In this document: positions 58,137 to 64,000 of the stretch, piece by piece
How positions within the stretch are numbered: the stretch's first letter is position 1
How the letters are laid out: every line of letters starts with the position of its first letter
Assembly: GCA_949297765.1 (NCBI GenBank)
Contig: CASFTV010000016.1
Span: 1 to 64,000, forward strand
Source: an uncultured bacterium
GTDB taxonomy: Bacteria; Verrucomicrobiota; Lentisphaeria; Victivallales; UBA1829
Direction of reading: 5' to 3'
Length of the DNA: 64,000 bases
The notes under the pieces: generated by a model
Databases searched by the model: none
Told to the model about the DNA's origin: nothing
Seen by the model: only the letters and a program-made list of their open reading frames with translations
Program-made: the position numbers and the translations under genes

Positions 58137-58418
58137 ATGAATACCAGAAAATTTTTCACAGTTGCCGCCGCAGCCGCCGCGCTGTTCGTGTCCGGAAGCG
58201 TTTTCGCCGGAGGACATCACCACGGGGAGGATCACAACAATGGGATCCGGCTGGCCGCCGATATTGTCCATCTTGTCAAGAGCGTGGTGACGCCGACCGT
58301 GGTTGTCCAGCAGCCGCCCCCGCCGGTGGTTGTGGTGCCCGCTCCGGTTCAGGAGATCCGTTTCTGCAATCCTCCGCCGCGCCCCTGTCCGCCTCGCCAT
58401 TTCCGCGGAAGATGGTGA
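58137..58418 (+). CDS. Small secreted His/Pro-rich protein
   Basis: A 93-aa protein not assigned to a family. Signal peptide (~1-24, ending VFA) is followed by a histidine-rich start GGHHHGEDHNNG, a short amphipathic block IRLAADIVHLVKSVVTPTVVV, then a Pro-rich tail with PPPPVVVVPAP and two Cys (CNPPPRPC). The same order is seen in the next gene, so the two are paralogues. The His cluster suggests metal binding, which is only a guess. The start follows AAAGGAAC. Confidence 0.7.
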   Translation: MNTRKFFTVAAAAAALFVSGSVFAGGHHHGEDHNNGIRLAADIVHLVKSVVTPTVVVQQPPPPVVVVPAPVQEIRFCNPPPRPCPPRHFRGRW

Positions 58419-58522: not shown

Positions 58523-59257
58523 ATGAAAGCCAGAGTTCTTCTTCCGGTCTGCGCCGTTCTGACGGTGTTCTGCTGTTCCGTCTCCGCGGGGCCGCATCAT
58601 CCGCACCGCAGCGACGGACTGCTTCTGGCCGCTCAGATTACCGGTCTTGTAAGAAGTGTGCTGTTTCCGCCGCTGGTGGTTCTCCCTCCGGTTGCCGCAG
58701 TGGTCTATACGCAGCCGCAGGCATCAACTGTGATCGTCCAGCCGGACGAGAACGGAATATACGGTTCAACGATCGTGGATCATCCGGTGATCCAGACCAC
58801 GGTTCCGACCGTGATCTATCAGGAACGGTCCCCCGTGTTCTATTATGATTCCTCCTGTCTGCTTCTTCCGCCGGTGTTTTTCCGTCCGCCTCCGCCGCCT
58901 CCTCCGAGACCGCGTCCTCCGAGGCCGCGTCCTCCGGTCATCATCGAACGTCCGCGTCCGCCGCGTCCACAGCCTCCGCCGAAGCCGCGCCCGAAACCGA
59001 ACCGTCCGCGTCCGCAGGAGCGTCCGGACCGTCCGCCGCTGAAGTATCCGGTGACGACGCCTCCGGGCCAGTATCGTCCCGATCCGAATCCGGGCCGCTA
59101 TCAGCGCCTGCCCGCTCCGGCGCAGAAGTACAAGGTGGAGGTGCCGACCTATGCGCCCGCTCCGCCGAAGGGACAGTGGCAGCCGCTTCCCTCTCCGTCG
59201 CGGAATTATCAGTCTGCGCCGCGCCCGGCCCGTCCGGACGGCGGTCCGCGCCGCTGA
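58523..59257 (+). CDS. Secreted proline/arginine-rich protein, paralogue of the previous gene
   Basis: A 244-aa protein. Signal peptide (~1-22) is followed by GPHHPHRSDGLLLAAQITGLVRSVLFPPLVVLPP, which matches the previous protein's His-rich start and LAA-x-I-x2-LV-x-SV block. A ~60-residue Val/Ile/Tyr-rich part follows. Residues ~120-190 are a highly biased Pro/Arg repeat (PPPPPPP then PRPPRPRPP-type units), and the tail is Pro/Gln/Tyr-rich. It is probably an extended, cell-wall- or envelope-spanning protein. The Pro/Arg repeat is codon-repetitive and could slip. Confidence 0.75.
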   Translation: MKARVLLPVCAVLTVFCCSVSAGPHHPHRSDGLLLAAQITGLVRSVLFPPLVVLPPVAAVVYTQPQASTVIVQPDENGIYGSTIVDHPVIQTTVPTVIYQERSPVFYYDSSCLLLPPVFFRPPPPPPPRPRPPRPRPPVIIERPRPPRPQPPPKPRPKPNRPRPQERPDRPPLKYPVTTPPGQYRPDPNPGRYQRLPAPAQKYKVEVPTYAPAPPKGQWQPLPSPSRNYQSAPRPARPDGGPRR

Positions 59258-59446: not shown

Positions 59447-60985
59447 ATGACAACAGATGAATTGAAACACAAAGCGCTTGCGTATACCCTGCCTCTGGTG
59501 CCGGCGCTCCTGCTCCTGAACGCCTGTGCGTCGACGGAGAGCGGTTCCTATCAGGATCCGAAGCCTCACGGGAAAACCGTTTACACCGAAGTGATGAAGA
59601 AGGCCTTCCAGTATGAGGGGCCTGCGCGCAATCCGGTGATCGTGATCCACGGTCTGCTCGGATCCCAGCTTGTCGATTCCCGGGACGGATCGAATATCTG
59701 GGGTCAGTTTTCTCTGACGGAGATGCTGGCGGGCAACAAGTTTCCGCGTCTGGCGCATCCGATGAAGGAGAAGCAGCCGCTTTCCAAACTTGTTTCCGAG
59801 GTCCGTCCGTCGGGTCTGCTCAGCAAATCCCATATCCGGGTCCTCGGGTTCTCGTTCGATTACGAGGGCTACGAGATTCTTGTGGATGCTCTTTCCAAGG
59901 GGGGATATGTGCCGGATACCGCTCCGCTTCCGGAAGGAAAACACTTCTATTCCCAGTTCGTTTTTTATTATGACTGGCGCCGCGACATTTCGGAGAACGC
60001 CGTCCGCCTGAAGGAGTTTCTCCTGGAGAAGAAGGCCTACCTTGAGGGACGGTACAAGGAGCTGTACGGAGAGAATGACTACAATGTTCATTTTGACCTT
60101 GTCGCGCACAGTATGGGAGGCCTTCTGGCCCGGTACTTCATGCGCTATGGAGGAACGCCGCTTCCGGAGCGCGAACTGGAACTGCCCCGGCTGACCTGGG
60201 AGGGCGCAAAGTATGTGGATCGCCTTGTGATTATCGCGACGCCGAATGCGGGATATCCCGACACGCTCGTGGAGCTGACGGAAGGCCTGCGCCTCGCTCC
60301 CGCGGCGCCCGTGTATCCGAAGGCGGTGATCGGCACATTCCCCTCCTACTATCAGATGCTCCCGAACGAGGAGACCGGCAGCGTGGTGGAAGCGGGGACG
60401 GGAAAACCGGTCAACTGTTTCAGTCTGGAAACGTGGGTGAAGTATCGCTGGGGACTCGCGGATCCCGACGGGGATGAATGGTTCCGGCTCCTGCTTCCCG
60501 AAGTGAAAACACCGGCGGAGCGGCAGAAGATTGTGCGGGAACATCTGGACAAATGTCTCTCCCGGGCAAGACAGTTCAAGCGGGCGATGCAGATTTCCGC
60601 GGTCACGCCGGAAAATGTATCGGTCTATCTGTTTGCCGGCGACTCCATCCTGACGAACTCTGTTCTTTCGGTCAATCCGAAGACCGGCGCGGTGACGGTT
60701 TCAAAACGGGATGCCGGAGATGGAAAGATTCCCGTGATGAGCGCCCGTCTGGATCTGCGGACCGCCGCAGATGTTCTCCCGTTCCTGAAATCCCCGGTTT
60801 CGTGGACCGGAATTTATCATCTTCCCGGCGGACACATGGGCATTATGAACAGCGGCGTGTTTGAGAGCAATCTGCTGTTCCTTCTTCTTTCGGAGCCGAC
60901 TTCCACACAGAAGGCCAATATGAAGCTGTATGAGGAGCTCCTCCAGAAAGACGCGTCCGCGAATGCCGATGGAACGAAGCGCTGA
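59447..60985 (+). CDS. LCAT-like lipase/acyltransferase lipoprotein
   Basis: A 512-aa protein with a lipoprotein signal (lipobox LLNAC, Cys27) and an LCAT/PDAT-type alpha/beta hydrolase fold. It has oxyanion block VIVIHGLLGSQLVD with SNIWGQ, YDWRRDISENA, nucleophile elbow VAHSMGGLLARY (Ser222), and the Asp/His region near the end (GDGKIPVMSARL and HLPGGHMGIM). The family transfers or releases fatty acyl groups of phospholipids or sterols. ATG 59447 follows GGAGG. It overlaps the start of the fusion gene, so they are co-translated. Likely envelope-lipid remodelling. Confidence 0.85.
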   Translation: MTTDELKHKALAYTLPLVPALLLLNACASTESGSYQDPKPHGKTVYTEVMKKAFQYEGPARNPVIVIHGLLGSQLVDSRDGSNIWGQFSLTEMLAGNKFPRLAHPMKEKQPLSKLVSEVRPSGLLSKSHIRVLGFSFDYEGYEILVDALSKGGYVPDTAPLPEGKHFYSQFVFYYDWRRDISENAVRLKEFLLEKKAYLEGRYKELYGENDYNVHFDLVAHSMGGLLARYFMRYGGTPLPERELELPRLTWEGAKYVDRLVIIATPNAGYPDTLVELTEGLRLAPAAPVYPKAVIGTFPSYYQMLPNEETGSVVEAGTGKPVNCFSLETWVKYRWGLADPDGDEWFRLLLPEVKTPAERQKIVREHLDKCLSRARQFKRAMQISAVTPENVSVYLFAGDSILTNSVLSVNPKTGAVTVSKRDAGDGKIPVMSARLDLRTAADVLPFLKSPVSWTGIYHLPGGHMGIMNSGVFESNLLFLLLSEPTSTQKANMKLYEELLQKDASANADGTKR

Positions 60986-63470
60986 TCCGCATCCCGAATA
61001 CAACCATTTTCGACAGGGGGAGGAGTTCCTCGCCTACCGGGATTCCGGCGGGACGGGGAATGTCCTTCTGTTCCTGCACGGATTCGCCTCGTTTTCCTGG
61101 AGCTGGGAGGAGCTGATCCGTTTTCTGCCGGAGGGGTTCCGCTTCGTGCGGGTCGATCTTTCCGGATTCGGATTTTCGCTCGGCAATTCGGAGCATCCGC
61201 TTTCCATTTACGATCAGGCGGCGCTGGTTGAACGGCTGATCGTGCATCTGGACCTGAGGCGCATTACGCTGATCGGACACGGATTCGGCGGCGAGGTCTG
61301 CATTCTGCTGACCCGCATGCCGGAGATCCTGTCGCGCCTGGACCGTTTATGTCTTGCAGCCTGCCGGGCGCCCGGCGAGGAAATTCCCGATTATATTTCC
61401 AAGATCGCCTCTCTTTCGCTGACGGGCGGCGGACGTGTTCTGGAGTTTGCCCGTTCCCGTTTTCTCGCCCGCGTGCTGCTGGAATATGTGCATGGGAGAA
61501 AGGCCGCTCTCCGGGAGGAGACTCTGGAGGCGTATTCCGCAATGCTGCGGCATCCCGGCCGTCTGGATTCCATCATCCGCGCCGCGGGGGAGTATCTGCG
61601 GAATCCCGGGGATGACCTGCTGTACGAATCGCTTTCCCGTTTCGAACTGCCGACTCTGCTGCTGTTCGGGGAGAAGGATCCGGTCATCACCCGGGAAGGA
61701 CGGAAACATCTTTCCTCTCTCCTGCGCAATTCGCATGAGATCCTGCTGCCCGGATGCGGGCACCTCCTCCAGGAGGAAGCGCCGGAGACTGTGGGGGAAC
61801 TGCTGAGTGCATTTATCCGCCGTCAGGTTCCCGAATTGCGGATTCCTTCGCCCCCGGAGGGCGGAAAGGAGATGGAGGAGACCGGCGGGGCGATTCCGCG
61901 CCTTTCCCGTCTGTTCGACCGCTGGAGTCCCGGAGCGCTTCTGGTGATTCTGATTTTGAAACTGCTTCAGTTCTGCCGTCTTCTCGGTGTCCGGGCGGAG
62001 GCGCACGGCTGGCGGAAACTGACCTCCGTGTTTCTCCGCGGGGAGTATTCCAAATTCATGCTTGCCAGTTTCCGGCTGGACTACTGCGGGGGATCTGTTC
62101 CGGCATCGTATCCGGAGGCACGCCGGACTCTGCTGCAGAGACTTTACGGATTTCAGCTGCTGCATCCGGATCTGCACTGGTCGGTGGAGCCGGGGCTTTT
62201 TTCGTTCGGCCGGCGCAGAATCCCGTTCTGTGATATTGTGGAGGCGCATGTGGATGCCGGCGGTGCGCTGCTCGGTCTGCGTCCGCTGTTTGACAGGCGC
62301 CAGCCGCCTCCGGGAGTTTCGGAGGAGCAGGCGTCGGAAGCGCTGGAGGCGATTCTCCGGATCTGCAACCAGTACCGCGAAGCGGATTCCCGCACCCGTC
62401 CCGGACTGATCGCGGGTGCGCTCCGTCGCTGGGTGTCGCGGAAACGGAGATTTCATCTTCTGACCCGGCGGAACATTCAGCGGTATGTGGAGCGGGTCAT
62501 GACCGCGTCGTTTATTTTTCTGGAAGTTCTTCCGGAAGGGGAGGAGGGGGGCGCGATGCGCTACCGGACGCCGGATCTGCGGATTTTCCGCCATCCGGGA
62601 TGGGGAATGACCTGCGTGACCGCGCGGCTCACCGCGGACTTCCGGGAGGCCGACCTCTGGTTCCAGTTTCATCACATCACCGCGGACGGAGCGCCGATGC
62701 AGGAGCTTCTGGCGGATCTGAAACGGCTCTGGGGATCGGCGGGGCCGGTGGTCTATCCGGCGTTTCCGGGGCTGGTGTCCCGTCCCGAAACCATGGACTG
62801 CGGAGACGGCGTTTACCGGGCCAGAGTCTATATTGATTTCACGTCTCTTCTTCGCCTGCGGCGGTATTTGAACGATCATTATTCGGCCGCGATGAACGGA
62901 GCCGCCTCGCTTGCGGGGCTGCTGATGTGGGGGCTGGCGGATCATCCGTTCTTCCGGGAAAAGAAGATGCTTCTGCCGATCGACGCGGGGATCTCTCCGC
63001 AGGGGGAACGCGAACTCGGACTGCTGTTCATCCGTCCCGGAAGATTCCTCTCCGGCACGGAACCCCTGCGCGGATATCTCCGCTTCCAGAAAGAGATGAA
63101 CCGGCGCATGAGAAGCGCCCGGAACGGTTCGGGGGAGAGTCATGAATTTCTCTCCCTCTGCACAATGCTCCATCCGTTTTTCTACCATGCGGCGCGGTTT
63201 CTTGCGCCTTCCTCGCTCGACGAGATCGTCGGGACGATGGGGATTTCCATCATCCGGGACGCGGAAATGTTTATCAGCCCGCTGACGGATTTTCAGAAGA
63301 ACGGTTTTCTCACGCTCGGTTCTGTCAAGATCCCGACCGGAGACGGGAAATGCGCCGGATCTCTCTGCATCTGCGGTTCCCGGACACAGATCCGGATCTA
63401 TCTTCAGGCAATCAAGCATCTGGTGCGCCATTTTCCGGAAACCCTCGGATTGAAAGAGGACTGCTTCTGA
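60963..63470 (+). CDS. Fusion of inactive alpha/beta hydrolase domain and HHxxxDG acyltransferase-like domain
   Basis: An 835-aa protein. Residues ~1-275 are an alpha/beta hydrolase (LFLHGFASFSWSWEELI, VDLSGFGFS, GEKDPVIT, GCGHLLQEE), but the nucleophile elbow reads GHGFGG: Gly107 (GGA, 61281) replaces the catalytic Ser. A hydrophobic helix follows (~322-342, GALLVILILKLLQFCRLLGV). Residues ~400-835 resemble CAT/condensation-type acyltransferases, with FHHITADG (H570, H571, D575) as active-site motif. There is no signal peptide. The start could also be 60930 or 60969. It overlaps the LCAT-like gene by 23 bases. A role in acyl transfer to an envelope lipid is inferred. Confidence 0.75.
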   Translation: MPMERSADPHPEYNHFRQGEEFLAYRDSGGTGNVLLFLHGFASFSWSWEELIRFLPEGFRFVRVDLSGFGFSLGNSEHPLSIYDQAALVERLIVHLDLRRITLIGHGFGGEVCILLTRMPEILSRLDRLCLAACRAPGEEIPDYISKIASLSLTGGGRVLEFARSRFLARVLLEYVHGRKAALREETLEAYSAMLRHPGRLDSIIRAAGEYLRNPGDDLLYESLSRFELPTLLLFGEKDPVITREGRKHLSSLLRNSHEILLPGCGHLLQEEAPETVGELLSAFIRRQVPELRIPSPPEGGKEMEETGGAIPRLSRLFDRWSPGALLVILILKLLQFCRLLGVRAEAHGWRKLTSVFLRGEYSKFMLASFRLDYCGGSVPASYPEARRTLLQRLYGFQLLHPDLHWSVEPGLFSFGRRRIPFCDIVEAHVDAGGALLGLRPLFDRRQPPPGVSEEQASEALEAILRICNQYREADSRTRPGLIAGALRRWVSRKRRFHLLTRRNIQRYVERVMTASFIFLEVLPEGEEGGAMRYRTPDLRIFRHPGWGMTCVTARLTADFREADLWFQFHHITADGAPMQELLADLKRLWGSAGPVVYPAFPGLVSRPETMDCGDGVYRARVYIDFTSLLRLRRYLNDHYSAAMNGAASLAGLLMWGLADHPFFREKKMLLPIDAGISPQGERELGLLFIRPGRFLSGTEPLRGYLRFQKEMNRRMRSARNGSGESHEFLSLCTMLHPFFYHAARFLAPSSLDEIVGTMGISIIRDAEMFISPLTDFQKNGFLTLGSVKIPTGDGKCAGSLCICGSRTQIRIYLQAIKHLVRHFPETLGLKEDCF

Positions 63471-63605: not shown

Positions 63606-64000
63606 ATGGCGGATTATGCGGTTTATTTCAGTCCGACGCACGGAACCCGGGCGTGCGTGAGAATGGTTGCCGGAGAACTGGGGTCTCCGGTTCGGGAAAT
63701 GGATCTGACCCTTCCCGCGGCGCGCCGGGAGGAACACCGGTTCTCTGCGGACGACCGGGTGATTCTCGGAGTTCCCGTCTACTGCGGCCGGATTCCGCAG
63801 CTGCCGGGGCTGCTGGATTCCCTGCGGGGCGGCGGAACACCGGTTCTGCTGATCGCCGCCTACGGAAACCGCGCGTATGAGGATGCGCTTCTGGAACTTT
63901 CTGCGAAGTGCTCGGAACGCGGATTCCGGGTGCGGGGAGCGATTGCGATGCCGGCACCGCACTGCTATGTCCCGGAGGAGGTCTGCCCGGACCGGCCCGA
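63606..64000 (+). CDS. Flavodoxin-fold protein, EFR1-like (partial)
   Basis: The gene runs off the window; 131 residues are visible. It begins MADYAVYFSPTHGTRACVRM, a flavodoxin-type FMN phosphate-binding loop with an unusual PTHGT. VILGVPVYCGRIPQLPG and TPVLLIAAYGNRAYEDALLEL (the Y-G-N-R/A loop) follow, with the beginning of an HCYVPEE-like segment. This is the N-terminal half of EFR1-family proteins, which continue into a two [4Fe-4S] ferredoxin domain; that half is not visible here. The start follows AGGAGGAGAG. It probably carries electrons for an anaerobic redox enzyme. Confidence 0.75.
   Translation, partial: MADYAVYFSPTHGTRACVRMVAGELGSPVREMDLTLPAARREEHRFSADDRVILGVPVYCGRIPQLPGLLDSLRGGGTPVLLIAAYGNRAYEDALLELSAKCSERGFRVRGAIAMPAPHCYVPEEVCPDRP

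Follow-up and report, generated by a model that had tools for sequence, protein, structure and literature searches.

What do two overlapping genes of an uncultured Victivallales bacterium do together, when the first encodes an envelope lipoprotein of LCAT type and the second an alpha/beta-hydrolase domain fused to an acyltransferase-like domain? The genes occupy positions 59447-63470 of the window, by which we mean the whole 64,000-nucleotide stretch analyzed here (positions 1 to 64,000 of contig CASFTV010000016.1, GenBank assembly GCA_949297765.1). An original prediction made from the letters of that stretch had described them as an operon pairing an LCAT/PDAT-type lipoprotein with a cytoplasmic pseudo-hydrolase/acyltransferase, both acting on acyl esters by family. 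The reading frames confirm both genes and their 23-nt overlap, and both proteins indeed belong to acyl-ester families. The two genes are very probably functionally linked, and the features of their products are consistent with an acyl-ester pathway that may be divided across the envelope. We refer to the lipoprotein as P0001, to the fusion protein as P0002, and to the second half of the latter, some ~520 aa, as ACT. The features, including likeness to lysosomal phospholipase A2 (LPLA2), are as follows.

59447..60985, + strand: gene for the LCAT/LPLA2-like lipoprotein P0001, 512 aa, with lipobox Cys27 and a proposed Ser222/Asp425/His463 triad
59447..59527, + strand: signal peptide of P0001 as predicted from sequence, including lipobox Cys27 (...ALLLLNAC/ASTE; the +2 residue is not Asp)
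60963..63470, + strand: gene for the fusion protein P0002, 835 aa, with an alpha/beta-hydrolase domain and an HHxxxDG acyltransferase-like domain
60963..60985, + strand: 23-nt overlap of the two genes, found at the same length in the loci L102 and L103
60999..61832, + strand: alpha/beta-hydrolase domain, about residues 13-290, with Gly107 at the nucleophile position and Asp239 and His267 kept
61896..63467, + strand: ACT domain, residues 312-835, without a Pfam family
62670-62690, + strand: HHxxxDG motif of the ACT domain, residues 570-576
61932..61991, + strand: hydrophobic helix opening the ACT domain, about residues 324-343, a putative membrane contact

Among 197 genomes of the class, 64 encode both ACT and the LCAT lipoprotein, 4 encode ACT only, 2 the lipoprotein only and 127 neither (phi 0.93, compared with 0.22 for ACT and NifH, a patchily distributed control gene), so that the check suggested with the original prediction, whether the two genes always occur together, is borne out with few exceptions; the 100 nearest genomes divide in the same manner into 49, 3, 1 and 47. 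The class count for the lipoprotein omits four weak hits of 70 (G046, G273, G281 and G203; E 3e-4 to 8e-4), that for ACT retains the partial hit in G263 (E 4e-42), and NifH was counted at E < 1e-70 among the matches listed. Two genomes with ACT and no detected LCAT gene, G038 and G073, are 99% and 94% complete, respectively; some of the absences of either gene may be due to incomplete genomes. Presence also varies jointly at short range: in genus g3 one genome has both genes and three have neither, in g4 two have both and one has neither, and the genera of families f1, f3 and f4 differ in the same joint fashion. Because the two genes differ together within and among genera, these differences argue against a single ancestral event.

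Of the 64 genomes that have both genes, 34 carry them side by side on the same strand, in families f1, f3, f4 and f6, with the order split evenly between LCAT first (17 genomes; g1, g3, g4, g8, g26 and g108) and ACT first (17 genomes; g5, g6, g15 and g109). In 20 of 33 adjacent named loci, a set that overlaps with the genomes counted above and is not independent of them (L102 and L062, for example, have the same contig content), an overlapping ATG is possible, by 23 nt twice, 20 nt once and 4 nt seventeen times. Since both opposite gene orders occur and each is tightly coupled, these arrangements point to repeated operon formation, and adjacency in either order upholds the earlier view that the two genes belong together. 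In the window itself the ATG of P0002 at 60963 lies in another frame than P0001, which stops at 60985; an alternative ATG at 60969 would shorten the overlap to 17 nt. Two sister loci, L102 and L103, show this 23-nt overlap too, which is therefore not an accident of one sequence. The pair is also found in another phylum, on the Omnitrophota contig L157, where it is preceded by GAPDH and followed by PGK and a radical-SAM gene, a setting that would suit a two-gene unit capable of transfer. A larger conserved operon was considered and rejected: clustering of the open reading frames (ORFs) from 40 stretches returned antisense artefacts and families present in no more than 5 stretches, with no widespread third neighbor family. 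The aryl-polyene marker DUF3261, a candidate further partner, occurs in only 12 of the 197 class genomes.

P0001 is, by its sequence, a further member of the known LCAT family. Its match to PF02450 reaches 30.1 bits (gathering cut-off 21) over 140 of the 392 model positions, and it is the sole PF02450 gene of its genome. Cys27, Ser222, Asp425 and His463 are invariant in all 23 aligned relatives, and all 33 LCAT genes adjoining named ACT loci retain the same four residues; we take Asp425 and His463, from their position, to complete the triad, and the YDWR and GDG motifs presumably correspond to those of the LCAT family. The structure model (predicted local distance difference test, pLDDT, 88.5) finds as its five best PDB matches 4x97, 4x92, 4x90, 4x95 and 5txf, that is, four lysosomal PLA2 entries and one LCAT, at E 3e-14 to 3e-12 and template-modeling (TM) scores by target of 0.58-0.63. 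P0001 thus shares with LCAT, PDAT and LPLA2 (group XV) the Pfam match, the fold and the invariant Ser/Asp/His, and differs from them in being a bacterial lipoprotein with a partial Pfam match. The earlier designation as a lipoprotein stands equally, as the invariant Cys27 sits in a lipobox behind a hydrophobic signal stretch. The residue following this Cys is not Asp in any of the 23 aligned relatives and the genome encodes LolA, for which reasons P0001 is likely sorted to the outer membrane. Several pair-bearing genomes (G051, G056, G059, G065, G095, G256 and others) have a second LCAT-family gene, located away from ACT.

The ACT domain carries the HHxxxDG motif placed between a strand and a helix. 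All 71 named relatives share its second His, Asp and Gly, and 53 of them also its first His, a pattern in keeping with the earlier acyltransferase label. The N-terminal part that precedes this motif contains GWRK and SKF motifs as well as a hydrophobic helix, the latter kept in nearly all relatives, including those that lack the hydrolase domain; in P0002 the helix stretch ALLVILILKLLQFCRLLGV, which contains a conserved Lys and an Arg, has a mean hydropathy of 2.24, and it is weaker in many relatives, at about 1.2-2.1. Known HHxxxDG enzymes include the PapA family. When a profile of 36 ACT members was aligned with one of 20 condensation domains, the score was 38.8 (P 6e-4) over 195 columns with the HHxxxDG motifs in register, while 20 column shuffles scored 12.6-22.4 and reversed plus shuffled controls did not exceed 22.4. 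Because this score lies above the controls and the motifs coincide, ACT is likely, if not proven, to be a distant member of the condensation/HHxxxDG acyltransferase superfamily. Its likeness to the condensation, WS/DGAT and PapA enzymes consists of the invariant HxxxDG, placed where a strand gives way to a helix, and, as far as the modest profile score goes, of a weak condensation-profile similarity; it differs from them in falling below Pfam recognition, in its own N-terminal part and in its fusion to a hydrolase or to a short-chain dehydrogenase/reductase (SDR) domain. WS/DGAT (PF03007) is absent from the Pfam matches of 26 ACT members, and the condensation domain of nonribosomal peptide synthetases (PF00668) leaves P0002 unmatched and matches 1 of the 26, at E 0.002. 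The ACT fusion protein may perhaps form a family of its own.

Residues 13-290 of P0002 clearly belong to the alpha/beta-hydrolases by sequence (PF00561 at 75.1 bits against a cut-off of 25.8, with likeness to PF12697 as well) and by structure, with ABHD6-, esterase- and dehalogenase-like matches and, in the VIA search, Z about 30, a root-mean-square deviation of 2.1-2.7 and about 270 residues aligned. Unlike active serine hydrolases, this domain has Gly107 in place of Ser within its nucleophile elbow, GHGFGG, with Asp239 and His267 kept, so that the pseudo-hydrolase described earlier is confirmed for this genome. Among 27 aligned fused members the nucleophile is Ser in 20, Phe in 1 and Gly in 6, the last being P0002 and five proteins from the same family, and the Asp and His are kept. 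Judged by these residues, the domain is probably active in most relatives but dead here and among the nearest relatives. It is fused to ACT in 41 of 71 named loci and missing from 30, some of which are contig ends; in two Omnitrophica ACT proteins a nucleotide-sugar-epimerase/SDR domain (HpnA-like in L165) takes its place. The idea that the fused hydrolase is a necessary catalytic part is rejected on these grounds, with Gly at the nucleophile position in six aligned members and the domain missing in others, and the view of the hydrolase half as a working part finds no support, the domain being dead here. Simple decay of a dead domain is rejected as well: when pairs of like ACT identity are compared, Gly-type domains turn out to be conserved about as well as the Ser-type ones (hydrolase-domain identity 0.39 vs. 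0.41 at 45-55% ACT identity and 0.54 vs. 0.54 at 55-70%, the pairs compared not being independent of each other). Since its nucleophile varies, the domain can be replaced or missing, and the dead form is still conserved, the hydrolase is an accessory open to exchange, and this clade retains it for a role other than Ser catalysis.

In light of these results we propose a two-enzyme acyl-ester pathway divided across the envelope, in which inner acylation by ACT would be followed by trans-acylation or trimming by the lipoprotein, and we consider the odds for and against this scheme to be evenly balanced. With its N-terminal hydrophobic helix, ACT would attach to the cytoplasmic side of the inner membrane and would move an acyl chain from a thioester (acyl-coenzyme A or acyl-acyl carrier protein, ACP) to a hydroxyl acceptor, yielding an acyl-ester lipid. 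The fused hydrolase would act as an accessory, a serine hydrolase in most relatives and a dead binding or scaffold domain here. Once the ACT product had reached the periplasm or the outer membrane, the lipoprotein would form an acyl-enzyme on Ser222 and either hand the acyl chain to a second acceptor, for maturation, or release it, for trimming. A broader proposal, to which we give somewhat less than an even chance, is that ACT founds an unrecognized HHxxxDG lipid acyltransferase family in which the front domain is swapped (live or dead hydrolase, SDR or none) and which has a near-obligate outer-envelope LCAT lipoprotein partner, that their joint product is an undescribed acyl lipid of Lentisphaerota, and that the two-gene unit moves between phyla.

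The closest working analogue of the pair would be PapA3 and Chp2 of Mycobacterium tuberculosis, where PapA3 is not known to carry a fused hydrolase domain. PapA3 makes diacyltrehalose inside the cell, and Chp2, an alpha/beta-hydrolase-fold enzyme of the periplasmic face, transesterifies it to penta-acyltrehalose (PMC4183827). The resemblance lies in an inner acyltransferase, an envelope-side transesterase of alpha/beta-hydrolase fold (Ser/Asp/His) and a synthesis split by the membrane. Chp2 differs in its transmembrane anchor and its cutinase-like motif, where the partner here has a lipobox and an LCAT fold, and the mycobacterial route also uses a polyketide synthase, an acyl ligase and MmpL10, whereas the ACT/LCAT pair has no conserved third gene.

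Several observations weigh against the divided pathway. The ACT domain of P0002 has no Pfam match with an E-value of 1 or below, sequence-profile searches of ACT against solved structures in the PDB returned only one chance-level row each, its match to the condensation profile is modest (hhalign probability 29%), and structure searches with the full model (PDB, VIA and viral) matched the hydrolase domain and left ACT uncovered among the matches listed. For P0001, sequence does not separate a transferase from a hydrolase role. No third gene, such as a transporter or a maker of the acceptor, accompanies the pair among the 40 stretches. The co-occurrence counts carry no tree-based control, and the Fisher value of 3e-44 that they give disregards relatedness and is no true probability. 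Finally, 30 of the 64 genomes with both genes have them unlinked, 26 on different contigs, mostly of drafts, and 4 on one contig with 16 kb, 1.0, 1.5 and 2.0 Mb between them. The separation in most relatives that the original prediction had named as its refutation is thus neither clearly present nor clearly absent, and its claim of stoichiometric production finds no support, the overlap implying coupling at most.

The main rival, which we regard as unlikely, is the storage of scavenged acyl chains: an envelope lipase or phospholipase would free acyl chains from lipids outside the cell, and ACT would re-esterify these chains in the cytoplasm, to wax esters or triacylglycerol, in the manner of WS/DGAT. 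In its favor, LPLA2 is described as phospholipase and transacylase alike (PMC6027918). Elsewhere, ACT relatives sit in acyl-chain or polyketide-like settings, which count in favor of the divided pathway as well. In Omnitrophica, L165:5183-9596 has a gene with an acyl-ACP-reductase-like region of the long-chain type followed by the HpnA-like SDR-ACT fusion, L167:5178-9596 has the same layout, and on the Archangium contig L170:28-5095 a KR-domain gene, an ACT gene and a P450 form a single tight run. Genes of acyl-ACP-reductase type supply fatty alcohol or wax ester formation, and the neighborhood of the SDR-ACT fusion accordingly speaks for storage, as does the finding that PF03007 reaches its cut-off in 0 of 145 genomes of the phylum, this one included, so that ACT could take the WS/DGAT role. 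The rival is weakened in turn because the class is without acyl-ACP reductases above cut-off (0 of 197 genomes; weak partial hits in 13, none here), and a reductase feeding wax esters in this genome is rejected, there being no family hit in it. ACT and WS/DGAT also share no sequence match, and one would hardly expect a general lipase to vanish along with ACT.

It is improbable that ACT, too, is periplasmic, with its N-terminal helix spanning the membrane, both enzymes acting in series on one envelope lipid and the hydrolase left in the cytoplasm. The hydropathy of ALLVILILKLLQFCRLLGV (mean 2.24) and the want of a hydrophobic signal ahead of the hydrolase domain would fit such a topology, but the stretch, with its conserved Lys and Arg and its weaker form in many relatives, rather resembles a helix lying in the membrane plane, the thioester donors are in the cytoplasm, and HHxxxDG enzymes are not known outside it. 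That the genes have no functional link at all, and are chance neighbors inherited jointly by ancestry, is very improbable: related genomes are not independent, the counts lack a species tree and the 30 unlinked genomes would agree with it, yet it fits poorly with the occurrence of both gene orders, the spread over several families, the pair seen in a second phylum, the joint differences inside genera and a phi of 0.93 against 0.22 for the control gene.

A literature search that left out most subscription journals found no publications on this gene pair. Joined over many lineages, the pair gives a bacterial LCAT-family enzyme a named partner and brings to light an acyltransferase-like family missed by profile libraries, while its hydrolase domain shows loss of a nucleophile with conservation about equal to that of live relatives. 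If the divided pathway is true, a specific envelope or neutral lipid is predicted in Lentisphaerota, the cultured Victivallis vadensis included.

Directly upstream of the pair lie two proline-rich, apparently secreted proteins (58137-58418 and 58523-59257, + strand) with no Pfam match. A reading frame that appears flavodoxin-like by eye begins 135 nt downstream (63606-64000, + strand) and has no conserved counterpart beside the pair in relatives. Strong NifH-type hits, often paired ~2.5 kb apart, occur in most genomes of g6, g8 and g108 and in none of this genus. The genome also has an aryl-polyene-like cluster (L201, contig C3:40000-54000) with genes for a ketosynthase, an acyltransferase, an AMP-ligase, a radical SAM/SPASM protein, LolA, an MMPL protein with DUF3261 and an ApeI-like dehydratase.

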